From: a virus
Virus record (IMG/VR): IMGVR_UViG_3300037246_000716
Span: 1-41,029 of that record
DNA: 41,029 nt
Reading direction: 5' to 3' (one strand)
Shown here: one piece after another, positions 4,630-38,815 of the stretch
How positions within the stretch are numbered: the stretch's first letter is position 1
Layout: each line of letters begins with the position of its first letter
Notes under the pieces: model-generated
What the model saw: the letters and a program-made list of their open reading frames with translations, nothing else
What the model was told of the DNA's origin: nothing
Database searches by the model: none
Position numbers and translations under genes: made by a program

Positions 4630-5012
4630 TGGGCGCAAAAGCAGAGCTAGAGAGGGAGCTAATCTTCTGTAAGGCGCGAGTTGAAGCACTTGAAGAGCAG
4701 CTCAGGGGAGCCCTTGCTGAAAAGCAAGGGCTGTTCCAACAGGTTGAAAAGCTAACGGATTCCCTGATCTCGATCAGGGCGCCCGAGGCTTACAGGGACA
4801 TCCAGATAGAGAAGGAAGGGCCTCAGCCCATGATGTCTGCTGAAACCATGGAGAAGAATCGGATCACGAAGGAGTTCACGACGAACTACTTCAATGCGAT
4901 TGAGGGGCCAACGTTCCGAGATGGCAACGATCTCGATGATCTTTTAACAGAGGGCATTATCAGGAACACTGATCATACCCCTCCGAGCGTACATGGGAAC
5001 AATGAAAGCTAA
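4629..5012 (+). CDS. Coiled-coil protein upstream of portal (127 aa)
   Basis: The ATG at 4629 overlaps the preceding TGA (TGATG). A longer reading from 4563 would lie inside the previous gene and is not needed. Residues ~3-45 form a clear coiled coil (ELERELIFCKARVEALEEQL.., LFQQVEKLTDSL). The rest is acidic, with GPTFRDGNDLDDLLTEGI. The stop overlaps the portal start (TAATG), implying coupled translation. Function unknown; a portal or packaging accessory is plausible. Confidence 0.7.
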   Translation: MGAKAELERELIFCKARVEALEEQLRGALAEKQGLFQQVEKLTDSLISIRAPEAYRDIQIEKEGPQPMMSAETMEKNRITKEFTTNYFNAIEGPTFRDGNDLDDLLTEGIIRNTDHTPPSVHGNNES

Positions 5013-7231
5013 TGGGCGAAGCTAAAGCGACAGGCGCAGCACAATCCGATTGGAGAAAGGGCCGACTCCACGCTCTCGATGCGATCCCCGCAGGGGACAA
5101 GCGGATAGGGCAGGCCATCAAGACCTATGCCGATGAAGTGAATGACAATCGGAATAGTAAGCAATGGGTGCGTGCTGTGCAGTGGGTGGAGAACTTTCTC
5201 TTCTCGCTGGGAAGGCACTACGTCGACGATGTCCTCATTTCGAGGCTGTCGAGGGACACGGATGGCAACCAGAGCGTTGTCCAAGATGCTGCCAACAACA
5301 TTCCCAAGCCTGTTAATGATTTGCTCGGCCGCTACATCGAAACAAATATCGCCCTCCTGACCGAGAACAAGCCGATCCCCAGGATCGAGGCGAGTTCTGG
5401 GAACGCGGAGGACGAGGACGCTGCGAAGCTGTCAGAGCTGACCATGGACTTCATGTGGGAGTCTCTGGATCTGCCGCAGAAGCACAGGGAAATCGCACGG
5501 CTGATCCTCCACTGCGGCGTGTGCTGGATGGAGATCATCTACGACGAGACAGTGCCCCGGAGGATAACCGTCCCCGACACCGAGGCCCAGGACACGACCA
5601 TGGCCCCGGGGGTTGGAGCCGGTCAGATCCAGCTACCGGTGCCCACTGAAACGCCCCTGCACGATGAGGTCGGACGCCCGATCTACACGGACAAGGTAGA
5701 GTACGGAGATATTACCGCGAACATCGTCAGCCCATTCGAGATGCACCTTCCTCAAGTCCACTGGTGGGACGGAGAGGACATGGGCTGGGTCATGCGAGAG
5801 TACTACACCAGCATCGACATGCTGCAAGACAAGTATGAGCACCGACCGGGCCTGAAGCTGAAGAAGTCAGATGGCTGGAATCTGAGTGCCCTCAAGGACT
5901 CTGGTAGCGCCGGTGACAACGTGAGGAACCTCCCCATCTGGTGGTGGGAGAGGCTCTCTGACATCGTGGAAGGCCCGGGGCCGTCGTTGTACGTGGGCAC
6001 CCCCGAGACCTGGGATGGCTACACCACGGTCAGGATCTTCGACCGGAAGCCGAACACCAAGTGGCCACGCGGACGGACGATCATCACCGTGGGCGACAAA
6101 GTCCTGTACGACTCACCGAAGAAGCGTGGCGCGCGGGCGTATGACCCCCGCTGGCCAACTAGATGGCACCCCTATATCCGGTTCCGCTGGGAGGCGATGG
6201 CTGGCAGCATGTTCGGTAGGTCGCTGGTATCCAAGCTCCTGCCAAAGCTGAAGAGAGTGAACGCGATCGATACCACCATGATTATGTGGCGGCGTACGGT
6301 TCCGATGTCGGCCTGGATCATCCCGAAGGGAGCCCAGCCGATCGAGGATCAGTGGCTTGGCGTACCCGGAAACATCTGGGGTTACGACCCGAGAAGGACA
6401 GCGGGAGCCAAGCCCGAACCGATCTATGCACCTCCTTACCCGGCGGCGGCGTCTGAAGAGCGCCAACAGCAGATTCAGGAGATGGAAGCGATAGCAGGGA
6501 CGGAAGAGATCCTGAGGGGCCAGAGGCCCGCTGGCGTCAACTCTGCGGCGATGATTGACATCCTACGAAAGCAAGCACTCGCGGGCCGGTCCTCGATCTT
6601 GCAGGAGTGGGATGAAGCCTTGCAAAAGGAGGGCTCGATCATCCTTCAGGAGACCATCAAGCATATCCGTAACGACGAGCGGTACGCTCAGCGGCTGCGG
6701 GTGCTGGCACGGGACAAGGTCAGTACGCTGGCGATCCGGAGCTTCAGTGGCTCCGACCTCAGCGACAACGTGATCGTGAAGATCGACACGGCGTCCATGG
6801 CGCTGTCGAGCAAGGAGGCCAGACAGGCCAAGGCTATCGAGATGGTGCAGTACGCATCCGGCCTTGCCAACATGGAGCCCCTGCTCAAGGCGAAGGTGCT
6901 GGAGGAGATCGGGTACGAAGACACCCTGATCCCGTCGGGACCGGACGTGGAGCGGTGCAAGCGGGTCATGGCGTGGATCAGGCAGGAGGCGTACGCCATG
7001 ATCATCCCCATGCCAGAAGACGACCCGTTCATCTTCTACGCGATGCTGGCAGAGGAGATGAAGTCGGATGGCTTCAACAACCTCAACGAGCAGCAACAGA
7101 TGATGCTGCTGGCATTGGTGGATCTCTACAAGAAGCAGGTTGAGAAGATCCAGCAGCAGCAGATGGCACAGCAAATGGCTATGGCCCAGGCGGGCGGTGG
7201 CGGTCAAGGTGGCCAAGGAGGTCCGCAGTAG
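5012..7231 (+). CDS. Portal protein (739 aa)
   Basis: Forms the dodecameric DNA channel at the capsid vertex and docks the terminase (family knowledge). The length, and an N-terminal region with DVLISRLSRDTDGNQSVVQDAANNIPKPVND followed by a helical block, are typical of P22-like/podoviral portals. So are the middle wing/stem segment (RGRTIITVGDKVLYDSP, HPYIRFRWEAMAGSMFGRSLVSKLLPKLKRVNAIDTTMI) and the Gln/Met-rich C-terminus (QQQMAQQMAMAQ then GGQGG). The ATG overlaps the upstream TAA. Scaffold and capsid genes lie downstream, but separated by an unusual ~7 kb of unknown and basic proteins. No terminase gene is adjacent in the window. Confidence 0.88.
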   Translation: MGEAKATGAAQSDWRKGRLHALDAIPAGDKRIGQAIKTYADEVNDNRNSKQWVRAVQWVENFLFSLGRHYVDDVLISRLSRDTDGNQSVVQDAANNIPKPVNDLLGRYIETNIALLTENKPIPRIEASSGNAEDEDAAKLSELTMDFMWESLDLPQKHREIARLILHCGVCWMEIIYDETVPRRITVPDTEAQDTTMAPGVGAGQIQLPVPTETPLHDEVGRPIYTDKVEYGDITANIVSPFEMHLPQVHWWDGEDMGWVMREYYTSIDMLQDKYEHRPGLKLKKSDGWNLSALKDSGSAGDNVRNLPIWWWERLSDIVEGPGPSLYVGTPETWDGYTTVRIFDRKPNTKWPRGRTIITVGDKVLYDSPKKRGARAYDPRWPTRWHPYIRFRWEAMAGSMFGRSLVSKLLPKLKRVNAIDTTMIMWRRTVPMSAWIIPKGAQPIEDQWLGVPGNIWGYDPRRTAGAKPEPIYAPPYPAAASEERQQQIQEMEAIAGTEEILRGQRPAGVNSAAMIDILRKQALAGRSSILQEWDEALQKEGSIILQETIKHIRNDERYAQRLRVLARDKVSTLAIRSFSGSDLSDNVIVKIDTASMALSSKEARQAKAIEMVQYASGLANMEPLLKAKVLEEIGYEDTLIPSGPDVERCKRVMAWIRQEAYAMIIPMPEDDPFIFYAMLAEEMKSDGFNNLNEQQQMMLLALVDLYKKQVEKIQQQQMAQQMAMAQAGGGGQGGQGGPQ

Positions 7232-7428
7232 TGAACAGCGTAGGCCAAGCATACGCGATTCTTCGTAGTCGCCGGTCAGGTGACAAGGAAGAGGCCGCTA
7301 GGTTTCTGGACAGCAAGGGACCGGCAGCGCGGGGCGAGCAGAACCGCCAAGAGTCTAAGGCTCGCGGCAGTGCGCGCCCCAAGAAGCCATACAAGCTCGG
7401 TGAGCGATTGAGGGTGAGACGTGGCTAG
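7231..7428 (+). CDS. Small basic protein after portal (65 aa, GTG start)
   Basis: The GTG start overlaps the portal TAG (TAGTG), and AAGGAGGT lies at 7216-7223. The product is strongly basic (R/K-rich, ending KPYKLGERLRVRRG). It overlaps the next gene by 8 bases. No family is recognised. Its basic charge and site next to the portal fit a DNA-contacting connector accessory, which is inference only. Confidence 0.65.
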   Translation: MNSVGQAYAILRSRRSGDKEEAARFLDSKGPAARGEQNRQESKARGSARPKKPYKLGERLRVRRG

Positions 7429-8200
7429 GCCGCCCGACAAATCATCGGCATCACAGTTCAGGACTCAATCATACATTGAGTCGTGGGCGGCGAACAACCC
7501 GTTCTACGCACCGCATGTAAATTGGGCGTTCGACACAACGGATACCACCCTCGGGCGCTCTGCTGCCTACTCCGGTAACGTACAGGTGGCAGGGTACAAC
7601 AACGTCACACCTCAGAACAAAGGTATTGACGAGAACAATCCCATTAACTGGGCGAGCCCCGTGCGTAGGGGCACGGCGTATGACAGGTTCGGGGCCGTGA
7701 ACAAACAGGTGGGCGACGTACAGCTAGGGCTGGTGCTGATGGGTGGCTACCAGTTCCCGGGTCAGGCGTTCTCCCCCGAGAGAACAAAGTCCGGGTTGTG
7801 GGGTGCGAACCCCCTGGCTAAGTGGATGAACAAACAGGGCGTGCAAGGGTACGTCCCTGAAGGAAGGCGCTACCGGAACGGACGACGAGAGACAGGGTGG
7901 TCTACCATGTTGAGCCGTTCGATCACGTCCAACAAAGCCGTGGGCGGCGTTGGCCAGAGCAGCGAGGACTCCACGCAGGAGGTGTACAGCACGCAAGAGA
8001 CCCGGTTGGCCACGCGCGCGGAATTCACGAACGAGCAGTTCAACGCCGAGGCAGGGAAGTTTGGAAGGACGTGGGCGGGGTTCAAGCCCCTCAGCACGCA
8101 CTCATTGAACCCTCACTTCGATTCGAAGCTGGGGCAGATGTTCAAGACTGAGAACGCGAACACCGGTTTTGCAAGGAGATCTACGGAGAGAAGGCTCTAG
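7421..8200 (+). CDS. Unknown protein in portal unit (259 aa)
   Basis: The GTG start is preceded by GAGG and overlaps the previous gene by 8 bases. The sequence is rich in Asn, Gly, Ser and aromatics (SYIESWAANNPFYAPHVNWAFDTTDTT...) with no clear catalytic motif or membrane segment. It looks like a largely extended or loosely folded structural protein. A minor virion role is suggested by its place between portal and scaffold; I cannot name a family. Confidence 0.7.
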   Translation: MARPPDKSSASQFRTQSYIESWAANNPFYAPHVNWAFDTTDTTLGRSAAYSGNVQVAGYNNVTPQNKGIDENNPINWASPVRRGTAYDRFGAVNKQVGDVQLGLVLMGGYQFPGQAFSPERTKSGLWGANPLAKWMNKQGVQGYVPEGRRYRNGRRETGWSTMLSRSITSNKAVGGVGQSSEDSTQEVYSTQETRLATRAEFTNEQFNAEAGKFGRTWAGFKPLSTHSLNPHFDSKLGQMFKTENANTGFARRSTERRL

Positions 8201-8208
8201 GAGGGGCA

Positions 8209-8589
8209 GTGATTCTTTTTCTCGATCCGAGTCCGCAACGAGCCGTCCTGGCATTCAACAGGATGACTCCGAAGGACAGAGAGAATACGATTTGGTGTAA
8301 GACGGTACTAGAGGCACAGACAACGCTCTGGAACTACCGTGGGGAGCTTACGAGAGTTCATCTGGAACACGATCTTGGCGAGCATCCGTATATGAATACG
8401 GCCAGCGAAGAGAGTGGGATGGAGATTGTACGGTACTTGGAGCGGATAGAGAAGCACTCCTACCCGGAGTTCGCTGAGATCCGAGCCTCGTTTGTCGTGC
8501 ATACGTGGAACGAACACGCAGGCCCTATCATGGTAGAGAGACTACGTAACATAGGGCTCGGCGTTTTGTACAAACCGTTTGGCATGTAG
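8209..8589 (+). CDS. cREC-like (cyclic-phosphate processing receiver domain) protein (126 aa)
   Basis: A GTG start is preceded by a GGAGGGG Shine-Dalgarno. The pattern matches the cREC family of receiver-like domains: an N-terminal strand ILFLD-x-SPQR (residues 2-11), LEHDLGEHPY (52-61, where the family usually has LDHDLG), then ESGMEI (68-73), FVVHTWNEHAGPIM (95-108) and a C-terminal YKPFG. The family is proposed to process cyclic phosphates linked to nucleotide signalling or RNA repair. Two usual acidic positions are altered: P7 where DD is common, and E53 for D. The domain fills the whole protein. It lies between portal and basic-protein genes, an unexpected place for a signalling domain. 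It could also be a degenerate, non-catalytic copy. Confidence 0.68.
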   Translation: MILFLDPSPQRAVLAFNRMTPKDRENTIWCKTVLEAQTTLWNYRGELTRVHLEHDLGEHPYMNTASEESGMEIVRYLERIEKHSYPEFAEIRASFVVHTWNEHAGPIMVERLRNIGLGVLYKPFGM

Positions 8590-8603: not shown

Positions 8604-11600
8604 ATGGACGCTAAGGAAAAGCTAGCAGCACTGAGGGCCGGTAAGCGCATCACGACCAGTGATGGCAAGACCACGCACAGCTACCGCCAGGGTAAGACCA
8701 CCGTCACCAAGAGTGCCGGTAAGACTACCACCACCACCAAGAAGGGACAGGGGTGGACGATTGACTCCGGTACCCAGAAGAAGACCATCGCACCCAAGCA
8801 CAAGGCGAGCCCCAAGTCAACCGCCGGTCGCTCTATCAAGTACCACGGTGGCAAGTCGAACGTTGTAGACCTCGGACACAATCCTACCAAGTCCGCAGTC
8901 TCCAAGGCAACTGTCAAGCTCAACAAGGCGAAGGCCGTTGCGAAGCCCAAGGCCAAGAAGAACACCGCGTCGACCACCCCCACGATCAAGATCCCCCAGG
9001 AGGGCGCCCCTACAGTGCCCACCTCGGCCAAGTCCGATAGTGGTAGCGGTTTCAGCCTCGGTGGCGCTGCTGTCGCTACCGGTCTCGCTGCTGGTACGGC
9101 GGTTGGTGTGCATAAGCTGCTGAAGGCTCCCACGGCGCCCCAGAAGGCGGCGGCACCCCCGAAGGCTAAGCCCCCGCGCCCCGGTGAAGACCCGAAACAG
9201 ATCAAACTCCCCGCAGCACCGAAGGGACTACCGGGTCGCCCCAAGAGAGTGGGACTCCCGAAGCCTCCCCTAGGACTCCCCGGTCCCCCGAAGGGCAAGA
9301 TCGAATACAATCCCCCGATCAATCTACCGAAGTCCCCGAAGGGACTCCCCGGTGATCGCCGCCCCACGCTGGTCGCACCGGAGGAGCCTAAGAAGCCCCC
9401 GACACGAAAGCAGATCGTTGACGACATCCGCTCCAAGTCCGCTCCGAAGGTCGCGAAGGTTGTGGTCCCGAAGGAGCTGCCGAAGACCCCGACCACCGTC
9501 AAGGTGCGAGGCATCGATGTGTCCGCGGCCGACATCGCAGACCAGCGGCCCAAGAACATCATCCGCACTACCATGGACAACGCGGGCAAGCGCACAACCA
9601 AGATCACCACAGGTACGAAGATGGAAGATGTGCAGCTTGAGGCCGACAAGCGCGTAGGTGACGAGCGCCGAGGCGGTGGTAGCAGACGAAGTGCTTCCCG
9701 TATGACGAAGAAGCAAGCTGGCGTCGAGAGTGGAGCAGGGTACCGCGAAGGCAGCCCCGTTGCTCCGAAGCAGAGTTCCCGCCGCAAGGCTGGGCAGCGA
9801 CGCGCCCCGGTTGAGTCCGACGCGACCATCGCACTGAAGGAAGCTGGTATTCTCCCGGATACAGTGGAAGCACCCAAGGCGGCCAAGGTCGAGGTGCCCG
9901 TAGAGGGTGGTGGTACTCCCAAGGCGAACCCGGAAGGTGTTGGTAGACTCCCGACGGCCCCGCACATGGGTGGACGCGCAGCCAACCAAGGAGCGCCACT
10001 CGCAATCGTGAGGGGCGTCAACGTCCCGGGTGCGCCCAGTACTGCGGAGCCCAAGGTGGCGAAGGTCGAGGTTCCGAAGGTTAAGACTATCACGACTGGG
10101 ACCGGGTTCGACGGTCAACCGTTGAAGGCAGAGGTCCCCAAGGTTGGCAGAATTGACACCGCGCCCAAGGTAGATCCCAAGCTGAAGAAGGAGCTGGATA
10201 AGGAGCGCGCGAAGAACGCGAAGCTCATAGCCGCACAACCGGCGGATCAGAAGCAGGTAGAACTAGAGCTGAAGAAGACTGAGGCGAAGGTGGCCAAGGT
10301 TGAGCCTCCCAAGACGAGCGCACCCGTTGCAGAGACACCCCCCGCCGACGCCACGCGGGCGGCTGGTGATCTCCGTGGCGTTGCAGTGGAGCAGGCTCCT
10401 GTCTCCGATGAGGCTGTCAAGTCAGCGCGAGAGTCGGCCGCGAAGAAGAGCTTCTACAGGAAGCAGGGCGCGGCCCGCAGGACTGCGCGAGATGCGTCGA
10501 TCGCTGAGAAGGGCATCATGACCATTCCGGAGACCGGTGAGATCGATTCTGAGGTGGCTCAGGTCAAGCAGAAGGCGCTTGAGCGAGACCTCTTGGATGC
10601 CACGGTTGCTGAGGAAGGACCGGGGAAGAAGGCGACCCCGGCCAAGGCTGTGGGTTCGGCGACTGACAAGCGGACCGCTGCTCAGATCGTCGGCACGGAA
10701 GCTGTTGAGGCCAAGGTGCGTGTGATGGAACCGGGTCCGCGTGATCTGGAGACCGAGCACGGTGGTGGACGCCAGCAGGGCACCATCGCGGACATCATCA
10801 ATCAGGACACCGACATGCGCGACGCGCGCAACGAGGATGTTCGGAGGGCCGCAAACAAGGCGCGCGCCATCGCAGCCAGCCGGGATGCAACCCCGGAGCA
10901 GGAGGCGAAACTTGATAAGGCCATTCAGGGTGAGTATGACCGGTCGTTGGAGCTGTACTTCGATGACGTTGAGACAGACGCGGACCCCAAGAACCAACGT
11001 GGCCCGCGCAAGCCTGACGCCCGACCCCGTATCATGGACTCGATGATTGACGCGGACGCAGAGCTGGCTAAGGCTCGCGACTCCGCTTCACCACCGGCAC
11101 CGGCTGACAGAACAACCGTTGACCAGAAGATCGCATTGATAAACGAGCGAATGGCGCCCGGTGGTGAAGCCATCTACAAGGGCAAAGAGTCCATCGATAT
11201 GCTGGAGTCCCTCAGGGACACGGGTGTCGCAGAGGTGAAGCCTCCGAAGCGCTCGCTAGCACTACCACCCGCACAGGACTTGCTCACCGAGCAGGAAGCT
11301 GGGTCGAAGCGTGGGCGCACAGCAGCGCGCGTGCAGGGCGCGGAAGCGGGACAGGCAGCGGCGGCGGCGAAGGCGGCAACAGGCGCAGCAGGACCGCCGG
11401 AAGTTCCGAGGATGGGTCCGAGAATCGTTACGACTGATACCGGTGAGGCGAAAGCCCTCCAAGGAAAGCAGGCTGGGATCCCGCCCGCTACTCCCCCCGT
11501 GGAGCGCGGCGTGGTGAGCACACCACCCAAGACGATGGCGCAGCTCTGGACAGGCCGCATGGCTGACTGGGGTCGGAGCGCGTACCAAGCCCAGGTCAAG

Positions 11601-12191
11601 CGACTGTCCGCTCCGTATCTGGATGTGGCTGGTGCAGACGCCAAGGCAACCGGCAAGGCTAGCGCGAAGGCGAAGGCCGCAGCGGGCGTCAAGGGTCTGG
11701 GTCTGGCGACCCTGGCGTTTACCGCCCTCGGTGCTGGTGAGTCCTACGCGGCTGAGCATGATCCGAAGAAGAAGCTCGGTGCGGCGGGTGAGCAGTTCAA
11801 GGCAGACTTGCCCGAGGTGGGTAAGAGCATCGTCAAGTTCACGGCTGCTGACTACGGTGTCACGAAGGTGATCCCAGCAGTGGTGAAGAAGATAGCCACC
11901 ACGCTGGGTGCTAACGCTACCCGCTCCGCGTTCGCGGCGGGGGCTAGCGCAACGATTGGTAGGCTGGGGCTTGCAGGGTACATCGGGTACCACGCACTCC
12001 CGTACACGGGCAAGAAGCTGGCAGAGCTGGCCCATTCGGCAGTCGAAGCTAGGAAAGCAGGTGCCGAGGCAACTGATAAACGAAAGAAGTCCGAGGCCAA
12101 GTATGGCACGGTGGAACTCGCAACCAAAACACGTCACGCCAAGGAAGCTGAGAAGCGACGCAAGGCGGCAGACAAGAAGGGGATCATATAA
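8604..12191 (+). CDS. Very long Lys/Ala/Pro-rich, largely disordered protein (1195 aa)
   Basis: A TAGGAGCT Shine-Dalgarno precedes the ATG. The N-terminus (residues 1-140) is Lys/Thr-rich. A short hydrophobic Gly/Ala segment follows at ~150-175 (GGAAVATGLAAGTAVGVHKLL). Residues ~190-260 carry proline repeats of the type LP..PKGLPG. Then come several copies of K-V-A-K-V-E-V-P-K-like motifs (~285-560) and long charged helical stretches. The last ~200 residues have small hydrophobic segments (GLGLATLAFTALGAG, SATIGRLGLAGYIGYH) and a basic tail. No enzyme motif is seen. Its size, basic charge and place beside the portal suggest a virion-internal or ejected DNA-associated protein; this is inference. 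It ends in TAATG with the next gene. Confidence 0.75.
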   Translation: MDAKEKLAALRAGKRITTSDGKTTHSYRQGKTTVTKSAGKTTTTTKKGQGWTIDSGTQKKTIAPKHKASPKSTAGRSIKYHGGKSNVVDLGHNPTKSAVSKATVKLNKAKAVAKPKAKKNTASTTPTIKIPQEGAPTVPTSAKSDSGSGFSLGGAAVATGLAAGTAVGVHKLLKAPTAPQKAAAPPKAKPPRPGEDPKQIKLPAAPKGLPGRPKRVGLPKPPLGLPGPPKGKIEYNPPINLPKSPKGLPGDRRPTLVAPEEPKKPPTRKQIVDDIRSKSAPKVAKVVVPKELPKTPTTVKVRGIDVSAADIADQRPKNIIRTTMDNAGKRTTKITTGTKMEDVQLEADKRVGDERRGGGSRRSASRMTKKQAGVESGAGYREGSPVAPKQSSRRKAGQRRAPVESDATIALKEAGILPDTVEAPKAAKVEVPVEGGGTPKANPEGVGRLPTAPHMGGRAANQGAPLAIVRGVNVPGAPSTAEPKVAKVEVPKVKTITTGTGFDGQPLKAEVPKVGRIDTAPKVDPKLKKELDKERAKNAKLIAAQPADQKQVELELKKTEAKVAKVEPPKTSAPVAETPPADATRAAGDLRGVAVEQAPVSDEAVKSARESAAKKSFYRKQGAARRTARDASIAEKGIMTIPETGEIDSEVAQVKQKALERDLLDATVAEEGPGKKATPAKAVGSATDKRTAAQIVGTEAVEAKVRVMEPGPRDLETEHGGGRQQGTIADIINQDTDMRDARNEDVRRAANKARAIAASRDATPEQEAKLDKAIQGEYDRSLELYFDDVETDADPKNQRGPRKPDARPRIMDSMIDADAELAKARDSASPPAPADRTTVDQKIALINERMAPGGEAIYKGKESIDMLESLRDTGVAEVKPPKRSLALPPAQDLLTEQEAGSKRGRTAARVQGAEAGQAAAAAKAATGAAGPPEVPRMGPRIVTTDTGEAKALQGKQAGIPPATPPVERGVVSTPPKTMAQLWTGRMADWGRSAYQAQVKRLSAPYLDVAGADAKATGKASAKAKAAAGVKGLGLATLAFTALGAGESYAAEHDPKKKLGAAGEQFKADLPEVGKSIVKFTAADYGVTKVIPAVVKKIATTLGANATRSAFAAGASATIGRLGLAGYIGYHALPYTGKKLAELAHSAVEARKAGAEATDKRKKSEAKYGTVELATKTRHAKEAEKRRKAADKKGII

Positions 12192-12556
12192 TGCCCGGAA
12201 CATTCACCGGTTCATCATTTGGCGAGAAGTTCAGAGAGAAGATCGCCGCGAAGAAAGCGGAGCGGGACGAGAAGAAGTCCGCGAAGAAGGAAACCCGTGG
12301 GAAGAAGAAAGCAGCCCGCAAGGACTCCCGCGAGGCCGTCAAGAAGGTCCGGAAAGAGGAGAAACCCGGCGCAATGCGGCGCTTCAAGGTTCAAGCCGCG
12401 AAGGCGATTCACAAGACCGACAAGACTGGCAAGAAGGCTGGCTTCGTGGGGTTCGGTAAGTACGCTGCAAGCAAGAGGGGGGCGCGACTCGGGAAGGTAG
12501 CGGCGGCCCAGAAGGCGCGGCGAGCCAAGCGCGCGGAGAAGAAGGGCCTGTCATAA
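12191..12556 (+). CDS. Highly basic histone-H1-like protein (121 aa)
   Basis: The ATG overlaps the preceding TAA. About a third of residues are Lys or Arg, in AAKKAER/EKKSAKK/RGKKKAARK runs typical of H1-like tails, and Ala and Glu make up most of the rest. No membrane segment or catalytic motif is visible. The composition fits a nucleic-acid binding or genome-condensing protein. It is one of a series of similar proteins from 8604 to 13440. The stop overlaps the next ATG. Confidence 0.7.
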   Translation: MPGTFTGSSFGEKFREKIAAKKAERDEKKSAKKETRGKKKAARKDSREAVKKVRKEEKPGAMRRFKVQAAKAIHKTDKTGKKAGFVGFGKYAASKRGARLGKVAAAQKARRAKRAEKKGLS

Positions 12557-12915
12557 TGGCTAGCAAGAAGACAAAGGCAAAGTTCGAGTCGACGCTGCGG
12601 GACAAGTTCAAGCGCACGGCCATGAAGAACAAGGCCGACGGCAGATCCTTGAGCTACAAACCCCTGAAAGGGGAGCACAAAGAAGTAAGCCTCCCCAAGT
12701 CTGCCTCACCCATCTTCTCGCTCAGCAAGATCGCAGGAAAGATCAAAGCATCTACGAAGAAGCGCGCCCATGAACTCTTGGGTGGCGAGGTGAAGAAAGG
12801 CGCGACAGCAGCTCACAAGGGTCTGACTGGTATCAGGCACCCTGCACAACTGATCCCGGCCATCAAGACGGGTAGTACCCTGGCTGGTCTCATCAAATCA
12901 CTCATGAAGAAATAG
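12556..12915 (+). CDS. Highly basic small protein (119 aa)
   Basis: The start overlaps the previous stop (TAATG). The N-terminal ~60 residues are Lys-rich (SKKTKAKFESTLRDKFKRTAMKNK). The C-terminal half has amphipathic helices (IAGKIKASTKKRAHELLGGEVKKG, LIPAIKTGSTLAGLIKSLMKK). It differs from its neighbours in sequence but shares their charge. Probably a DNA- or membrane-contacting virion component; the exact role is unknown. Confidence 0.68.
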   Translation: MASKKTKAKFESTLRDKFKRTAMKNKADGRSLSYKPLKGEHKEVSLPKSASPIFSLSKIAGKIKASTKKRAHELLGGEVKKGATAAHKGLTGIRHPAQLIPAIKTGSTLAGLIKSLMKK

Positions 12916-12924
12916 GAGTACGCT

Positions 12925-13440
12925 ATGATTATCCCCGGCAAGAAGACCACCATCGGCGCGGGCAAGAAAACCGCACCGGCGAAGAAGACCACGCTCAGCG
13001 GCCCGGCAAAGAAGACTGCGCCCACAGCGAAGAAGACCATCAGCGGGCCGACGGTCAAGACATCAGGCAAAACACCCACGTCCGGACACGATCCGGCAGG
13101 GAAGAAGACCCCGGCGACGGCGACAACGCACGGTTCGACCTATGACTACCGCAAGGGGTCAACGGCCGCGCCTCCGAAGAAGAAGGCCCCGAAGCCCAGC
13201 TACACGGTAAAGACCAGCGACGGCGACTCCGGAACGGGTCCGACCAAGCAGGCTGCTGTGAACGACATGAGGAAGAAGGCGCCCCCGACGAAGGCCGAGT
13301 TGAGAGCCAGCAAGAAGCTCGCGAAAACGGCGACGCGTCTAGCCAAGAAGCGGGCCAAGGACATCAAGCGGGCTTCGAAGAAGAAGGCGCAGGCCGCGAA
13401 GAAGGCTGCGAAGAAGAAGAGCAGGGGCATCTTGAAGTAG
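12925..13440 (+). CDS. Lys-rich repeat protein, histone-like (171 aa)
   Basis: TAGGAG lies 9 nt upstream of the ATG. Residues 1-60 contain degenerate KKT-x-SGP/KKTAP repeats. A short less-charged middle (YTVKTSDGDSGTGPTKQAAVNDM, ~92-114) follows. The last 50 residues are an almost pure K/A/R tail (KKLAKTATRLAKKRAKDIKRASKKKAQ..). This arrangement of a repeat region, small core and H1-like tail resembles bacterial and viral histone-H1-like proteins. Likely role: DNA compaction or neutralising packaged DNA; inferred from composition only. Confidence 0.72.
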   Translation: MIIPGKKTTIGAGKKTAPAKKTTLSGPAKKTAPTAKKTISGPTVKTSGKTPTSGHDPAGKKTPATATTHGSTYDYRKGSTAAPPKKKAPKPSYTVKTSDGDSGTGPTKQAAVNDMRKKAPPTKAELRASKKLAKTATRLAKKRAKDIKRASKKKAQAAKKAAKKKSRGILK

Positions 13441-13448
13441 GAGTAAGT

Positions 13449-14321
13449 ATGACGCTTGGTAGGTTTGGTACAGGGTTCCTCAATTCGGATCCCCGCAAGG
13501 GACAGCACCCGACTGGCGGGTCTATTCATGCCGCTCAGGGTAAGGACACGTCCGTTCTCATTACGGGTAATCCCGAGGACAGTTTTGGGTATGGGAACAA
13601 GGATGCATTCTCCACACAGAATGAGTCCTACGTCCCCAACGAGTCCGATCCTAACTCTTTTCGACGGACCGCTGCTGAGACCAGGGAGCTGAGAGAGTCC
13701 CGTGGTGTGGCCAAATCCCATGAGAACATGGGGTCACTGGCCGTTGACTTCCGGAAGTCCGAAGAGGGCAAGCGAAAGATAGGAGAGCAGACGGAGACAT
13801 CGAAGCGAGCCACGAAGATCCTCGATGCGAGGGCGGCTGCCGAGTACCAGCGTAACGTGACTGGGCCCGCTGAATGGGAAGCGGCGAAGTTCAGGGCTCA
13901 GGCTGCGGGCGCGAAGGCGTACATGGATCAGTTCACGCACAAAATGGACGCCGGGAGTAGCATCGACGCCCTCTTTGCTCGGGGGAAAAGAGGTGGCGGG
14001 GGGGTCGCCGGGGGGATGCGCATGCCAACATCTGGTCCGAACACTAATAAGCTCTTCGCAGCAGGCAGCCGTAGTGGCCTTGACCTCGGCCCAAACCACT
14101 CTAAGATAATGGCCCAGACGACGAGTGACTTCAACTCCATTAGGGGTGAGGATCCCTCGGCCCTGGCCGGGCAGCGCGCGCACGCCCAGGCCCCTGGTAC
14201 TCAAGCGAAGTCAGCCGCAGAGATGGCCAACGCACAGTCAGCAAGTGGTAGGGCCACCCCTATTGAGATGGCTCAGGCAATGGCATCTCAGAGCTACAGA
14301 AACAACCCGAACAAACCGTAG
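13449..14321 (+). CDS. Unknown virion-region protein (290 aa)
   Basis: TAGGAGTAAGT precedes the ATG. The product is hydrophilic and rich in Gly, Ser, Ala and Gln. A helical charged centre lies at ~95-165 (GKRKIGEQTETSKRATKILDARAAAEYQRNV..) and a glycine run (GKRGGGGVAGG) at ~179-189. The C-terminal 60 residues are Ala/Gln-rich. No recognised domain. The placement directly before the scaffold/capsid unit suggests an internal or connector component. Confidence 0.65.
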   Translation: MTLGRFGTGFLNSDPRKGQHPTGGSIHAAQGKDTSVLITGNPEDSFGYGNKDAFSTQNESYVPNESDPNSFRRTAAETRELRESRGVAKSHENMGSLAVDFRKSEEGKRKIGEQTETSKRATKILDARAAAEYQRNVTGPAEWEAAKFRAQAAGAKAYMDQFTHKMDAGSSIDALFARGKRGGGGVAGGMRMPTSGPNTNKLFAAGSRSGLDLGPNHSKIMAQTTSDFNSIRGEDPSALAGQRAHAQAPGTQAKSAAEMANAQSASGRATPIEMAQAMASQSYRNNPNKP

Positions 14322-14329
14322 GAGATACA

Positions 14330-14509
14330 ATGCCCAGATCTAACACGACAAACAAACCCGTATACGCAGCCGACTCCATAGCATCCGTCTTTGGGACGGC
14401 CGTAGGAAAGGTCAAAGATCTGATCAACTATGGTGCCCCGAAGCCGAAGAAGGAGCAGGGCGAGGGACTGGGGCGTACCGCTAAGCTCCTGAAGAAGGTA
14501 GACTACTGA
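14330..14509 (+). CDS. Small protein closing the portal unit (59 aa)
   Basis: AGGAGATACA precedes the ATG. The reading frame begins MPRSNTTNKPVYAADSIASV and ends AKLLKKVDY. It has a short amphipathic helix and a basic C-terminus, with no recognised family. It is the last gene before two hairpins and promoter copy 2, so it ends the transcription unit that begins at 4369. The Shine-Dalgarno and tight spacing support it as real. Confidence 0.6.
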   Translation: MPRSNTTNKPVYAADSIASVFGTAVGKVKDLINYGAPKPKKEQGEGLGRTAKLLKKVDY

Positions 14510-14743: not shown

Positions 14744-15667
14744 ATGAGTACAGAAAATCAGGACGGAAATACGTCAACAGTTGAAGACAAACTGAGGGCG
14801 GCTGTGGCTGCGTCCGACACAGGAACCGTAGAAGAAACGGTCGAAGAAGAGCCGGTAGAAGAGGTTGTGGTTGAGGGTAAAACCGAAGTCCGCATCCCCA
14901 AGAAACGTTTCGATGAGGTGAACAACAAGTTCAAGGAGGCTTCGGCTTCCAACGATTTGCTCACCCAACAGGTCGCGGACTCCAATGCGAAGCTGGTCGA
15001 GATGGCGGCAATTCTGGCTGCGAAAGATGATGATGTCAACACCCTGAACGAGATCAAAAGTTTCGTCAATGACCCGTCGATGGAAGCTCACGTTAGAGCC
15101 ATCGACAACAAGTTGAAGGGCATTGAACAGGAAGTTGAAGAAGGTGTGTCTACACCTGATGAAGCTCAAGCCAAGACTCGCGAGTTGATTGAAGAGACTC
15201 GTACAGAGATGGCAGACATCCAAGCGACGGCTTCGGCCGAAGCACTGGTGGGTCGAGCGGACGTTATCGCTGACAAGCTACTGGCACAACTGCCTGAGAC
15301 GTACAATGAGCAGGATCGTACGATCGTTCAGGCACTGTGGACCGAGAAGATGGACTGGGATGTCGCAGTTGCGAACCCTGACAACCTCTCGGAGCAGCTT
15401 ACGGAAGGCTTCCAAGAAGCCCTCGATACGTATGGTGTGCCACGCGGCGCGTTGTTTACGGTGGATGAGGTAGAAGAGTTGACACCTGAAGCGATTACCG
15501 CAACCAAGACTCCAGAGCAGGAGTTGGAAGACTTGATGGATCAAAACTGGGGCGGCGTGAAGACAGAGACCTCTGAAGCAGGGAAGACTACGGTCACCCC
15601 TGAGAAGAGCGACGATGACTTCAACGATGCCTTGGCCGACATCATCAGGAAAGCGAACAAGCGGTAG
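14744..15667 (+). CDS. Scaffolding protein (307 aa)
   Basis: AAAGGAGATG precedes the ATG. The protein is very acidic (EETVEEEPVEEVVVEG near residue 30) and mostly helical, with a coiled coil at ~55-100 and ~120-160. It ends in a small basic helix (FNDALADIIRKANKR), the usual capsid-binding end of scaffolds. It lies immediately upstream of the major capsid gene under the same promoter. By family knowledge it guides procapsid assembly and then leaves the head. No protease domain is seen. Confidence 0.82.
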   Translation: MSTENQDGNTSTVEDKLRAAVAASDTGTVEETVEEEPVEEVVVEGKTEVRIPKKRFDEVNNKFKEASASNDLLTQQVADSNAKLVEMAAILAAKDDDVNTLNEIKSFVNDPSMEAHVRAIDNKLKGIEQEVEEGVSTPDEAQAKTRELIEETRTEMADIQATASAEALVGRADVIADKLLAQLPETYNEQDRTIVQALWTEKMDWDVAVANPDNLSEQLTEGFQEALDTYGVPRGALFTVDEVEELTPEAITATKTPEQELEDLMDQNWGGVKTETSEAGKTTVTPEKSDDDFNDALADIIRKANKR

Positions 15668-15690: not shown

Positions 15691-16899
15691 ATGATTACAT
15701 TTAATACGTTGGGCGATATGCTTCTTCGTCGGTACATCGTCGACTTCATTGCCCAGATGCAGAATCTTTCTGCACCCATTTATACGCAGCTCCGCGAGAA
15801 CACGCAGTTCACCCCCTCGGGTGATGGCGCGTACTTCGGCGTTCGTATTGCTGGTAATGAAGCAGGCGGCGGATGGCGTGCGACGGACGACAACGTCCTT
15901 CCCACGGCATCGAACGAGAATGTTAAGCAGGCTCGTGTCCGACCTAAGAAGTACTACCACACAGTGACGTTCTCCGGTCTCGCCGAAGCAGTTTCGGCGC
16001 GTGGCGGGGAAGATGCCTTTGCTTCCGGGATTACTGACGCGATCAGTACTGCCGTCAAGCGCGCGGGCGCACGATTCGAGACCGACTTCCTTCGGGGCGA
16101 CGGTACGGGTCGACTGACCAATTGCGGTTCTGCAAGCACGAACTCCACGGTTCCCGTGGATGACGCGCGTCCGTTCCGTGCCGGTCAAGTCATTGTTGGT
16201 CTCAACAACGCATCGGGCCTCAGAACTTTCGGTCCGGTGACGGTTACTTCCAAGGACATCGCGAATGGCCAGATTACGGTATCAAGTGCCGTGACGTGGT
16301 CGACTGACGATGGTATCTACATCTCTGGTGAGCAGAGTGAAGCTTCGGCCCCGCAAGAGGTCACGGCTCTCGGTCTCCCCGCCATTGTGTCGGCTACTGG
16401 AAGTATCTACAACCTTTCACGAACCACGTATCCGATCCTTCAGTCGAAGGTAATCGCTGCGGGCTCCGTGGCACTCGACGAAGCCCTGCTTCGCCGGTTG
16501 CGACGCCAGCTCTTGGTGGAAACGGATGTTGGATCTCTCGATGGCTTTGCCATGATTTCCAACTGGGAGCAGTATGATCGCTACACTGAGATCTCACTGC
16601 CCTTCCGTCGGTTCAACGACATGCGCTTGGAGCTAGGCGCTCAGCAAGAGCTGACTACGTTTGAAGGCCGTCCCTGGCTGATTTCGTGGGCCGCTCTCCC
16701 GGATCAGGTATTCCAACTGAACCTGGGTGCAATTGAGCGTGGCGTTGTGCGACCCCTCTCGATCGACGAGAGAGTGAACATGGCGTGGGTTCCGGGTCAG
16801 GACGCGTTCACGGTTCTCATGAAGTACTACGGTGAGAACGTGGCACGCAGCATCAACCAGACGGCGAAGCTGACTGGCTTGACTGTCCCGACCTACTAA
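15691..16899 (+). CDS. Major capsid protein, HK97-like fold (402 aa)
   Basis: TAGGAGCTACCA precedes the ATG. The protein follows the scaffold and is followed by a terminator, as is common for capsid genes. An N-terminal arm and helix lead to an E-loop-like segment rich in Gly (GNEAGGGWRATDDNVLP, ~55-71) and a long spine helix (GGEDAFASGITDAISTAVKRAGARFETDFL). A mixed beta/alpha P-domain follows, and the C-terminal third contains FAMISNWEQYDRYTE and RPWLISW. These are typical of HK97-like capsid proteins of about 400 residues. No cleavage site is obvious. Confidence 0.85.
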   Translation: MITFNTLGDMLLRRYIVDFIAQMQNLSAPIYTQLRENTQFTPSGDGAYFGVRIAGNEAGGGWRATDDNVLPTASNENVKQARVRPKKYYHTVTFSGLAEAVSARGGEDAFASGITDAISTAVKRAGARFETDFLRGDGTGRLTNCGSASTNSTVPVDDARPFRAGQVIVGLNNASGLRTFGPVTVTSKDIANGQITVSSAVTWSTDDGIYISGEQSEASAPQEVTALGLPAIVSATGSIYNLSRTTYPILQSKVIAAGSVALDEALLRRLRRQLLVETDVGSLDGFAMISNWEQYDRYTEISLPFRRFNDMRLELGAQQELTTFEGRPWLISWAALPDQVFQLNLGAIERGVVRPLSIDERVNMAWVPGQDAFTVLMKYYGENVARSINQTAKLTGLTVPTY

Positions 16900-16926: not shown

Positions 16927-16965
16927 AGTAGGGGGCTCCATCCGGGGCTCCCTACTCTTGTATGT
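16927..16965 (+). terminator. Terminator hairpin after the capsid gene
   Basis: AGTAGGG (16927-16933) pairs with CCCTACT (16950-16956). The stem extends inward to about 13 bp with two G-U pairs and an ATCC loop, followed by CTTGTATG. The U-tract is short, so it may attenuate rather than fully stop transcription. It defines scaffold-capsid as a separate high-expression unit; no copy of the phage promoter follows it before 17015. Confidence 0.65.
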
Positions 16966-20739: not shown

Positions 20740-21429
20740 ATGGCTGAACTAACTGGGACACTGAGCAATTACCTCACCCGGGTCCGTAGGTACGTTGGAG
20801 AGGAAGACGAAGACAAGAGCTTCTGGGATACTCCGATGATCAAGCAGATCTTCAACGCACACTACAGAAAGAGGTGCGCTGAGCTGGTGATGGCTTACGA
20901 AGGGTACTTCACGGTCGTGGCTACCAGAGACACGGTCTCAAATCAAGAACGATACGCTTGGCCGACCGGCTTTGAGCGTCTAATGAAACTAGAGATCGTC
21001 CGATCAGACGGGCGCACGGTCCCGCTACAGCGAGCGGAGAGGCACTACGGTGCCAAGCCCACACCCGGTACCGGTGGGGATGACTACCTCCCCAACTACC
21101 GCTCCATCGGGAGTGGTTTCGTGCTGGAGCCAGCGCCCTCAACGGGCGTGGCAGGGCAGATCCGGATGGAGTACATCGGAACCCCCGCCGAACTCACTGC
21201 TGACGACGATCAACTACACTCTGACTTCCCCTCCATGCTGGACGAGATCTTGGTGCTGGACACGGCGTGCGCGCTGTACGACCAAGAGCAGGCCCAGGAA
21301 GAGGGACGCATGAGGAGTCTACTCAGACAGCGGATGGAATGGGAAATGCAATGGGAGAGGTACATCGAGAATAGGATGATCTCTTCCAGTAGCGTGACCC
21401 CGTTCGCTCCACACTATCAGGATGCCTAA
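20740..21429 (+). CDS. Head-tail adaptor (P22 gp4 / T7 gp11-type) (229 aa)
   Basis: AAGGAGATGAC precedes the ATG. The mostly helical protein opens with LSNYLTRVRRYVGEEDEDKSFWDTPMIKQIFNAHYRKRCAEL. A beta section follows (TRDTVSNQERYAWPTGFERLMKLEIV..) and a C-terminal helical bundle. This layout is typical of podoviral adaptor proteins that form a ring under the portal. Its stop overlaps the nozzle gene start (TAATG), and adaptor followed by nozzle is the usual order. Confidence 0.72.
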   Translation: MAELTGTLSNYLTRVRRYVGEEDEDKSFWDTPMIKQIFNAHYRKRCAELVMAYEGYFTVVATRDTVSNQERYAWPTGFERLMKLEIVRSDGRTVPLQRAERHYGAKPTPGTGGDDYLPNYRSIGSGFVLEPAPSTGVAGQIRMEYIGTPAELTADDDQLHSDFPSMLDEILVLDTACALYDQEQAQEEGRMRSLLRQRMEWEMQWERYIENRMISSSSVTPFAPHYQDA

Positions 21430-28421: not shown

Positions 28422-29636
28422 ATGGCATTTTCACCGTTTTCGAACAGCAAGGCTATCCGAGAGGCCAAGGAGGCGGCTGGCCAGCAGCAGGCAGCAGCCA
28501 TCTACGGGATGGAGGCCGCTGATGCCGCGAACGCGCGCACCATCGCAGGAGAGGCCGCCGCAGTCAACATCTTCAACGCCTTCGGTCAGGAAGGAACCTT
28601 CGAACCCGGTTCGGGAACGGGGAGTTACGGCGAGGGCCAGACCAACCTCTTCGACCCCAACGCCATGCCCAACCAGAACCTCAAGTCGTTCGGGAGCTAT
28701 GGGGGCAGGAAGCAGCTCAAGACACCCCGTGGGGGCATCATCGACCCCGAGGGGTACGCCAACGCCAACATCGGGACCACCGCCTTCAAGATCCGCAGCA
28801 AGCAGACCGCTGAAGCGTACCAGCTCCTCAACAGAGAGGGCAAAGAGTGGGACATGCTTGAGAACTCCACCCTCGGCCAGATCCACGAAGGCGCCGCCCT
28901 CCAGCTCCGAGACACCCTCCGACAGCTCAAGAACAACTACGCCAAGGGCGGGACCGCACGGCGCACGGCCATGAACGAGATGGGTGAGATCCAGGCGGCT
29001 GAGTTCGCCCACCGGATGAAGACCAGCGAGACTTGGCAGGCCAACATCCGACTCCACGACTACATCCGGAAGAACGCCGACCGCGTTCAGGCGGGCAACA
29101 TCGAGTACGTCAAGACCCTCCCGGGTCTCAGCACAGAATACCGAGCGGCGTACACCGCGACCGCTGCCCTGATGGTGTCAGCTTCTGAGAAGGCGGCGAT
29201 TATCGCTGGAGAGGCATACGAAATCCGCGCGTCCCAGCAGGCCAGGGACATCGGTGGCAAACTGGTAGAGGCTGTCGTCCTGGCGGCTGCCTCGTCGGCA
29301 CTTAGTCACAGTAACGAGATGTTTTCTGCTGCTGGTAACTACATACAGGAGTGGGGCGATAGCAATCTTGGAGTCACCGGTGGTAAGTTCACTGACCTCC
29401 TCGGTGGTGGCGTCACGGCTATGGGTGGTGACCTCTCTGGCTTGTGGGGTAGGGCCGATGCTTCCCCCGCGGGGCGCCTCGGCGGTCTCACCGCAGCCCA
29501 GAAGGCGGCGGCTGACGCGTCGGCGGGGGTTGATGTCAACCAAGCCGTACTCGATGAGAAGACCGGCGTGAAGAACACAACTGTAGCAGGCCCCGGTAGT
29601 GAATTTACCCAACGGTACTACGACAGCATAACGTAG
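28422..29636 (+). CDS. Putative internal virion (ejection) protein 1 (404 aa)
   Basis: ACAGGAGAGG precedes the ATG. The protein is Ala/Gly/Gln-rich and helical. Its N-terminus (AIREAKEAAGQQQAAAIYGMEAADAANARTIAGEAAAVN) is of the kind found in podoviral internal core proteins. A weakly hydrophobic helix lies near residues 265-295 (EIRASQQARDIGGKLVEAVVLAAASSAL) and a Gly-rich tail follows. First gene of a three-gene set in which sizes rise (404, 509, 1272 aa), a pattern resembling T7 gp14-gp15-gp16. Role inferred from order and composition. Confidence 0.66.
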   Translation: MAFSPFSNSKAIREAKEAAGQQQAAAIYGMEAADAANARTIAGEAAAVNIFNAFGQEGTFEPGSGTGSYGEGQTNLFDPNAMPNQNLKSFGSYGGRKQLKTPRGGIIDPEGYANANIGTTAFKIRSKQTAEAYQLLNREGKEWDMLENSTLGQIHEGAALQLRDTLRQLKNNYAKGGTARRTAMNEMGEIQAAEFAHRMKTSETWQANIRLHDYIRKNADRVQAGNIEYVKTLPGLSTEYRAAYTATAALMVSASEKAAIIAGEAYEIRASQQARDIGGKLVEAVVLAAASSALSHSNEMFSAAGNYIQEWGDSNLGVTGGKFTDLLGGGVTAMGGDLSGLWGRADASPAGRLGGLTAAQKAAADASAGVDVNQAVLDEKTGVKNTTVAGPGSEFTQRYYDSIT

Positions 29637-29645
29637 GAGAACTAA

Positions 29646-31175
29646 ATGGCAATTGATCCCAACCAAGCGTCCGCGCAGGCGGCAGATCCGTACCCGAAGC
29701 CGCGCCCGAAGGCTGGCTACGAAGAGAAGAAGCCGCCCGGGTCCATAGCCAGGGGGCTCTCCACGGCTCTGATGCAGAGCGCGTTCTCAAAGTTTGGTGA
29801 AGCGTTCACTGACACTGGTGACGTGAAGAAGGATGCCGCGTCCCGCAATGAGCGACTCGCACCCTACAACGCTAGCGGCGAGGGTGTAGCCGCAGCCCTT
29901 GAGGGACGGTGGCACCAGATGGAGATGGACAACTTCAACAACGAGTTCATCGAACCCTTTATTGCGTCGAAGAAGGGGATGCTCGACGACTACGAGCGCC
30001 GCCACGCCATGGCGGAACTAGGAATCTTTGAGGGACCGGATGGTAACCCCATACAGGTTCCCCTTGACAGCAAGGAAGGCCGACTGCGGGCGGGCAAGAT
30101 GACGAACGCACTGGTCACACGGTTCTTCTCGATCAACGGTGACATGGATCTTGAGCTGTTCAACGAAGCAGGCAAGTACTCCAGCAACCCACTGATTACT
30201 AACCGCGCGATTGCCATTGAGCAAGCTGCGTCGGCTACGTTCGCTATGGTTACCAACCCCGTCAATGCCCTCGGAGCACAGAACGTGCAGTCACAGATCC
30301 GAAGACGAGAGGATGAGTCTGAAATTGGGAGAGAGCGGAACAGGCTCATGGCCGCTGACGCCCAGTCGCAGAAGCGGGCGAGGTCGTATGCTGAGGCCCT
30401 CGCGCACCCCAACATCGGGCACGCAGGACTTGTGCAGTGGCTCCGTGGTGACCCGGATGGGTTGGCTGTCCTCCACTCGAAGGGTGGTGGTGGTTCATTT
30501 GTGACCGAAGAGAGGCGGCTCGTTGAAGCGCGAGTCCATAAGGATTTTCCCGACCTAGAGCCCCTTGACGACGAATTCATCGCTAAGGTTGAGTCACACG
30601 AAAGTCAGTACGTGCTCGCGGCGGCCCTCAAGTTCATCGCCAGTCAGAACCCGGCCGATCTGGACAAGGTCAAGGAAGAGTCCCCACACTTCTTCAAGGA
30701 GAGTGGACCGGGTGACGCAGCGATCGTGTCGGACAAACGAATGTCTCCGGATAGGCGACAGAGCCACGTTGATACGTGGAGGGACCACGCAGAGAGGCAC
30801 TTCGACGAGTACATGAGTGACCCCGCCAACCCGCCGGGCATCGACGCAGCAATGGCTAACCTCGATGAGTGGTTGCGAGCAGCAATCTATGGCGAAACAG
30901 GTGAGGATCATCTCAAGGGTTCTACCGCAGCTCGCGGCAAGGGCACCAAGCGGCTTGTCGATCAAATCCTCACCGAAGTACCCGAGCACATCAGTAAGTG
31001 GTGGGCAACCAAGGGTGGTGGTAGTGGCATCGGTCAAGAGGAGAACCCCCGTCGGGCTGGTCTTTTGCAGATGCGCGCCGGGGGTGGGAAGAGGGGACGG
31101 ATGGCAGCCGCGGAGTTGCGTGACTTGAAGCAGAAGAGGAAGAAGAAGGGTGATGGTGGGTTGAACCTACCGTAA
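29646..31175 (+). CDS. Putative internal virion (ejection) protein 2 (509 aa)
   Basis: TAGGAGAACTAA precedes the ATG. A Pro/Lys-rich N-terminus is followed by long helices (EGRWHQMEMDNFNNEFIEPFIASKKGMLDDYERRH; SQIRRREDESEIGRERNRLMAADAQ). The C-terminus is basic and Gly-rich (AAELRDLKQKRKKKGDGG). No enzyme motif is recognised. Its position between two other ejection candidates fits a middle tunnel protein (T7 gp15 analogue). Confidence 0.64.
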   Translation: MAIDPNQASAQAADPYPKPRPKAGYEEKKPPGSIARGLSTALMQSAFSKFGEAFTDTGDVKKDAASRNERLAPYNASGEGVAAALEGRWHQMEMDNFNNEFIEPFIASKKGMLDDYERRHAMAELGIFEGPDGNPIQVPLDSKEGRLRAGKMTNALVTRFFSINGDMDLELFNEAGKYSSNPLITNRAIAIEQAASATFAMVTNPVNALGAQNVQSQIRRREDESEIGRERNRLMAADAQSQKRARSYAEALAHPNIGHAGLVQWLRGDPDGLAVLHSKGGGGSFVTEERRLVEARVHKDFPDLEPLDDEFIAKVESHESQYVLAAALKFIASQNPADLDKVKEESPHFFKESGPGDAAIVSDKRMSPDRRQSHVDTWRDHAERHFDEYMSDPANPPGIDAAMANLDEWLRAAIYGETGEDHLKGSTAARGKGTKRLVDQILTEVPEHISKWWATKGGGSGIGQEENPRRAGLLQMRAGGGKRGRMAAAELRDLKQKRKKKGDGGLNLP

Positions 31176-31183
31176 GAGGACGT

Positions 31184-38685: not shown

Positions 38686-38815
38686 CAATGTCATCCATTA
38701 TATAGTTGAGGGCTTGTGCTGCAACAACGAAGGCTTGCTCTACATTCTCGAATGAGCCCGAACCCACCTTCTCAACACACTCTACCAGCTTGTTGAACGC
38801 GTCATCTCTATCCAC
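38657..38815 (-). CDS. Tiny acidic helical protein (52 aa, GTG start)
   Basis: GTG at 38815 overlaps the last codons of the upstream glycosyltransferase by 8 bases and has ATAGGAG 7-13 nt upstream in the mRNA. The 52-residue product (DRDDAFNKLVECVEKVGSGS, then FENVEQAFVVAAQALNYIMD) is two short acidic amphipathic helices. Unknown function. It fits the chain of overlapping genes in this operon and would otherwise leave an unexplained gap. Confidence 0.6.
   Translation of the reverse strand: MDRDDAFNKLVECVEKVGSGSFENVEQAFVVAAQALNYIMDDIDGSSNKESD
38697..38724 (-). promoter_or_regulatory. Candidate internal promoter of the glycosyltransferase operon
   Basis: On the minus strand TTGCAG (38724-38719) lies 16 bp from TATAAT (38702-38697). 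It lacks the AATTCC extension of the three plus-strand promoters. A start near 38690 would be too close to the gene at 38685 but could supply the genes from 38510 downward. It sits inside a coding sequence and may be chance. Confidence 0.3.

Follow-up and report, generated by a model that had tools for sequence, protein, structure and literature searches.

In the short-tailed phage SU10 (Kuravirus), the gene products gp20-24 are ejection proteins, of which gp20 has transglycosylase activity (PMC9509320); in phage T7, gp16 bears a peptidoglycan-hydrolase domain (PMC8954989), and a part of the cargo protein gp45 of phage crAss001 waits in the tail (PMC10172136). The present analysis concerns four adjacent, strongly basic genes (positions 8604 to 13440) between the portal and the putative scaffold gene of an uncultured phage, represented by the 41 kb IMG/VR record IMGVR_UViG_3300037246_000716 (41,029 nucleotides; this whole stretch is termed the window, the portal-scaffold interval is termed the slot, and features of the window lie on the + strand unless stated otherwise). 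Judged from their sequences, these proteins appear to resemble the known phage internal proteins in function and themselves match no known family; the balance of the evidence favors the view that the four genes encode internal virion cargo proteins, which are probably expelled together with the DNA.

The four open reading frames (ORFs) were present beside the portal gene as described in the first-pass annotation of the window, and the approximately 1600 residues given there agree with the 1606 amino acids counted: a giant protein of 1195 residues (8604..12191; net charge +78, free of cysteine, mostly coil) is followed by small proteins of 121 (12191..12556; +30), 119 (12556..12915; +22) and 171 residues (12925..13440; +40). 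The tight linkage of the genes was likewise evident (TAATG at 12191 and 12556, 9-nt gap before 12925; an AGGAG ribosome-binding site precedes 8604), as was the strong basicity, the three small proteins being the most basic per residue of the 40 window genes. The 121-residue protein showed 31% identity to a 160-residue basic protein of a 119 kb relative and the 119-residue protein 33% identity to a protein of equal length in the relative L020 (E 4e-12); BLAST revealed no clear homologue of the 171-residue protein. Chance ORFs can be dismissed, because homologues occupy the same place in relatives and the ratio of non-synonymous to synonymous substitution rates (dN/dS) of the giant was 0.20 in a pair of relatives. 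None of the four proteins matched a Pfam, PHROG or PDB family, and a literature search for phage head proteins that are H1-like or strongly basic yielded nothing useful.

The description of the proteins as H1-like was appropriate with respect to their Lys/Ala/Pro-rich, basic composition (Lys, Arg, Ala and Pro account for approximately 42% of the giant), but applies only to parts of the giant, because its basicity resides mainly in residues 1-400 (+57) and the last 300 residues (+25), whereas the middle is neutral or slightly acidic (residues 701-900: -10), and because it contains hydrophobic helices. No histone or HU-type domain, including the winged-helix globular domain, was detected in the window proteins (Pfam, E 1) or in any of 142 portal-scaffold proteins (E 0.01). 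Tails of basic, Lys/Ala/Pro-rich composition are present in the set, but composition alone does not define H1 membership; on these sequence grounds, the basic proteins are not histones.

A conserved hydrophobic, transmembrane-like helix of the giant (residues 149-173; 9048..9122) has a counterpart at the equivalent position in all six homologous N-termini that were profiled. The best conserved part, however, is formed by the C-terminal 220-236 residues, which are predicted to be helical and include a second hydrophobic stretch: in the window, this domain comprises residues 960-1195 (11481..12188; 48% identity to L020, helical in low-confidence AlphaFold2 models with a predicted local distance difference test score (pLDDT) of 48) and the second hydrophobic helix residues 1025-1045 (11676..11738). 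It is closed by the terminal motif KYGTVELATKTRH (12099..12137), whose consensus across the aligned homologues is K-Y-G-T-[VIL]-E-x-A-[TA]-x-T-R; the corresponding DNA pattern had eight matches among 2.9 million viral contigs, all from this lineage (seven already known members and the new member L072, the capsid protein of which is 75% identical). The AlphaFold2 model of the full-length giant showed coil for most of residues 1-520 and islands of helix beyond them, and is consistent with a largely disordered protein without saying more, because it reached a mean pLDDT of 39 from six sequences. A KVAKVEVP-like octad occurs four times in the giant, other repeats being weak, and PDB profile searches with its N- and C-terminal regions gave no match.

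The giant found no annotated relatives among 50,697 phage records and none in a direct IMG/VR scan; the comparison set was therefore gathered through the portal and the capsid protein, which were themselves only 22-28% identical to those of isolated phages. A search of this anchored kind, for which the first-pass annotation had proposed portal and scaffold as anchors, recovered homologues of the gene set at the same place in related phages. Two relatives (119,470 and 119,599 bp) shared 78% identity in the portal and 89-90% in the capsid protein with the window. The contig ends of these two genomes, G001 (L056/L061) and G002 (L010/L024), overlapped perfectly over 121 and 87 bp, respectively, at different places of the genome and thus indicate closed genomes of approximately 119.4 kb; both records are classed as linear. 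In the tree of portal and capsid protein, the loci split into two clades of 11 each. Every clade A locus that covers the slot possessed large basic proteins there, the giants including that of the window ranging from 1195 to 1484 residues, whereas the slot of the sister clade B contained no giant and other, mostly smaller genes (L034 and L044 also have a small basic set). Between the window and a 119 kb relative, the giant could be aligned in part only, with approximately 25% identity, compared with 78% for the portal, 89% for the capsid protein and 47% for the scaffold; the dN/dS values of two closer relatives were 0.20 (giant), 0.10 (portal) and 0.08 (capsid protein). The giant thus evolves fast yet under purifying selection, and the cassette is fixed in position, fast-evolving and limited to one phage clade.

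The genes found in the clade B slot seem to be exchangeable. L039 (6087-8759) and L032 (5627-6076) encode slot proteins of 890 and 149 residues with the N-terminal stretch WARTQPGLRGVF in common, and small ORFs with lipoprotein-like signal sequences are located at the slot end, just upstream of the scaffold gene, in L027, L030, L032 and L046.

The slot proteins of the window lack cysteine altogether (0 in 1955 residues, approximately 20 being expected from the other window genes; P 2e-9), as do those of the relatives (0 in 11,453 residues). The same holds for the five ejection proteins of SU10 (0 in 2956 residues), for T7 gp15 and gp16, and for the prohead scaffold and core proteins of T7 and T4. 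Disordered proteins in general are often poor in cysteine; its absence therefore supports an internal location but does not prove it.

Two further features may link the basic proteins to head assembly. A common C-terminal module was shared by a pair of co-encoded basic proteins in each of three loci (z against shuffled ends: L055, 23.6; L029, 14.2; L043, 17.1); in L055 and L029, one partner was the largest basic protein and the other a small neighbor. Sharing was marginal between the giant and the 121-residue protein of the window (z 3.5), and no pair of co-encoded basic proteins exceeded z 4.4 at the N-terminus. In L043 (5632-6758), the last 23 residues of two adjacent basic genes are nearly identical, which suggests a recent exchange of gene ends. 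Moreover, the basic charge of the slot was inversely related to the charge of the scaffold (Spearman -0.72, p 0.002, n=16 loci; independent contrasts on the tree: r -0.77, p 3e-4). Taken together, the C-terminal sharing and the charge tracking suggest loading through the scaffold. A terminal tag (K-x-G-[IL]-[ILS] / G[IL][ILSV]) was found in six of 48 slot proteins against 0.15 expected, including three of the four basic proteins of the window (12170-12191, 12530-12556 and 13410-13440; further carriers in L036 and L072), but is a lead only, because the pattern was chosen after inspection of the sequences.

A possible connection to ejection was provided by L072, which encodes a 147-residue SLT lytic transglycosylase (9883-10326, - strand; PF01464 E 2e-26) directly after the giant and ahead of the scaffold; no second one occurs in this record of 59.6 kb. 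Enzymes of this type are part of podovirus ejection machines, as in SU10 gp20 and the hydrolase domain of T7 gp16. The comparison with SU10 is instructive in this respect: its gp20-24 are likewise large, Ala-rich, cysteine-free internal proteins of a short-tailed phage and include a transglycosylase, and the window phage, which by its sequence is of the short-tail type, possesses an SU10-type adaptor protein (20740..21429; PF24175 E 2e-15). Unlike the basic set, however, the SU10 ejection genes follow the tail genes and their products are near neutral, while the portal-scaffold interval of SU10 holds one neutral protein of 78 residues. The crAss001 cargo protein gp45 is a slightly basic, flexible chain in capsid and tail with a transmembrane helix in its N-terminal region (136-158), and thereby resembles the giant with its hydrophobic helix behind a basic, flexible N-terminus; in contrast, it is encoded after the muzzle gene, has a net charge of +16 in 842 residues and contains two cysteines. 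The T4 proteins IPI-IPIII and gp67/gp68 are scaffold-loaded head proteins, the genes of the latter two also lying between portal and scaffold, and IPII and IPIII are described as having a short targeting sequence in common. This sequence is N-terminal, whereas the sharing in the basic set is C-terminal, and no strong N-terminal sharing of the T4 capsid-targeting type was detected in the basic set; furthermore, gp67 is acidic and gp68 a mildly basic protein of 141 residues. With the T7 core (gp14/gp15/gp16), the set has in common large, cysteine-free proteins (gp15 and gp16, ejected ahead of the DNA) and hydrophobic helices, which occur in at least one large member of the set, the giant. The T7 gene order is nevertheless found elsewhere in the window: the basic set precedes the capsid gene, and the place after the tail genes is occupied by a separate trio (28422-35002) that resembles gp14-15-16 by order and size, so that the basic set is extra to it. 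The trio, assigned by size, order and composition, comprises cysteine-free proteins of 404 (28422..29636; one hydrophobic helix), 509 (29646..31175) and 1272 residues (31184..35002; two hydrophobic helices); comparison of the largest with T7 gp16 and SU10 gp24 gave a Gly-rich stretch or nothing (T7 gp16: no sequence match). Homology of the basic proteins to crAss001 gp45, SU10 gp24 and T4 gp68 was considered and rejected, as profile comparisons produced no match; the likeness therefore extends to working like ejected cargo and not to membership of a family.

According to the model that we favor, the basic proteins would be expressed from the operon that also supplies the portal, the scaffold and the capsid protein, and the acidic scaffold and the C-terminal sorting modules would gather the basic, flexible chains into the prohead. 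After exit of the scaffold, the cargo would come to lie close to the portal, either on the surface of the packaged DNA or interspersed with it. The largely unfolded, cysteine-free chains could then thread through the portal and the short tail, ahead of the DNA or along with it, whereupon the hydrophobic helices of the giant might enter or cross the host envelope.

Several observations weigh against such a delivery role. The basic set matched no known ejection, cargo or internal protein (Pfam, PHROG, PDB, and gp45, SU10 gp24 and T4 gp68 profiles), the structural models (pLDDT 48 and 39) are too uncertain for a fold comparison, and low cysteine content also follows from disordered, low-complexity sequence. 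Of 14 records tested for the SLT domain, only one had it in its phage part. The charge correlation is carried by few large contrasts, because only 10 of 16 showed the expected sign, and the basic-charge threshold used for the slot sum was the choice of the analyst. Clade B fills the slot partly with lipoprotein-like and other ORFs, which shows that internal proteins are not its exclusive occupants, and the separate trio alone could do the ejection job.

Among the functions offered in the first-pass annotation, the internal core or injected cargo is nonetheless the best supported and, in our estimate, somewhat more probable than its opposite, being favored by position, absence of cysteine, hydrophobic helices, C-terminal modules, the L072 transglycosylase and the scaffold charge tracking. 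The condensation or protection of DNA proposed alongside it is less well supported. Histone-like proteins would form a bulk coat on the packaged DNA that screens its charge and either eases tight packing or shields the genome after entry, and the high Lys, Ala and Pro content, the strong net charge, the structureless chains and the small proteins with few acidic residues would suit this role. Yet histone, Hc1, HU or H1 domains are lacking, the giant is basic in parts only, with a neutral middle and hydrophobic helices, and much less positive charge suffices in the sister clade. Furthermore, a genome of 119.4 kb carries approximately 239,000 phosphates; with a total slot charge of +202, neutralization of 10% of them would take approximately 118 copies of every protein. 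In T4, each of the internal proteins is present in approximately 360 copies (PMC9958956); bulk coating would thus be feasible only at copy numbers of this kind, and as nothing was found in its favor, we regard condensation as improbable.

Unlikely to a similar degree is a transient role, in which the basic proteins and the acidic scaffold form a prohead core that is lost or degraded at maturation. The gene position corresponds to that of T4 gp67/gp68 between portal and scaffold genes, cysteine is likewise absent from the core and scaffold proteins of T4, gp68 is a core protein that gets degraded (PMC9958956), and the scaffold-charge tracking would be expected of assembly factors as well. However, gp67 is strongly acidic and gp68 only +9, no maturation protease was identified among the head genes of the window, and the hydrophobic helices, the transglycosylase in the L072 cassette and the size of 1195-1484 residues suit delivery better. 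That the proteins are not part of the virion at all, but late host-takeover or membrane proteins sited in the head operon, appears very unlikely: the lipoprotein-like small ORFs in the slot of the sister clade and the cREC protein of the slot, atypical for a head protein, point in this direction, whereas the strict position in clade A, the charge tracking and the C-terminal modules common to co-encoded proteins speak against it.

The location between portal and scaffold given in the first-pass annotation was correct but incomplete, as the interval also contains the genes at 7231, 7421, 8209, 13449 and 14330. The portal gene (5012..7231; 739 residues; PF16510 E 1e-9, phrog_156 E 2e-19) is followed by a small basic protein (7231..7428; 65 residues, +11; 59% identity to its counterpart in a 119 kb relative), a 259-residue protein without family match that varies among relatives at the equivalent place (7421..8200) and a cREC receiver-domain protein (8209..8589; PF20274 E 3e-8) as fixed marker between portal and giant. 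The cREC domain, a cyclic-phosphate processing receiver domain, recurs within the head operon, with 17 matches among the scanned portal-scaffold proteins, in the slot of both clades. Downstream of the basic genes lie a cysteine-free protein of 290 residues (13449..14321; 41% identity to a 289-residue protein of L020) and a 59-residue ORF (14330..14509), the start of which, MPRSNTTNKPVY, is like that of the 119-residue basic protein of L020 (86% over 14 residues). The putative scaffold (14744..15667; 307 residues, net -39, no cysteine) matched no PHROG profile and was assigned by its acidity, its place directly 5' of the capsid gene and 47% identity in a relative; the major capsid protein follows (15691..16899; phrog_14242 E 1e-16). 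A 13-pair hairpin with tail (16927..16956) possibly marks the end of the head operon, being a consensus match whose count does not exceed that of shuffled sequences; no forward terminator stands out in the interior of the interval.

In L055 (9257-11143), the first 21 residues are missing from the capsid match, which starts at residue 22, and a basic ORF of 225 residues lies just upstream; this capsid gene is perhaps interrupted near its start by an intron or homing element. L055, a clade member, stems from a metagenome bin labeled Deltaproteobacteria/Myxococcota, which is a bin label and not a host assignment. Genes for DNA polymerase A, a DnaB-type helicase and a large terminase are present in one of the ~119 kb relatives; in L058 (8513-11077), from a 119 kb relative, the ORF of the family A DNA polymerase also has an N-terminal uracil-DNA glycosylase domain match. 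At the window end (38808-40958, - strand), a large glycosyltransferase-like protein is encoded, the relative of which is a 1120-residue fusion of GT2 and GT1-type domains.

A more far-reaching proposal, which we consider doubtful, is that one clade evolved a second, independent delivery system besides the ejection trio, i.e. a highly basic, unfolded, cysteine-free cassette loaded by scaffold charge and portable C-terminal modules, with the membrane-entering giant as its main piece. If this were true, the C-terminal modules would be general virion-loading tags; should they indeed act as loading signals, they might serve as tools for investigating or steering the uptake of proteins into phage heads. 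Labels such as "histone-like", when derived from composition, can mask delivery proteins among phage proteins. Few systems are known in which the choice of head-loaded, ejected proteins by a phage can be followed, and the lineage described here, with its fast-evolving and mostly unstructured candidate cargo, offers a testable case, the C-terminal sharing and the tracking of cargo charge by scaffold acidity being its most testable features.

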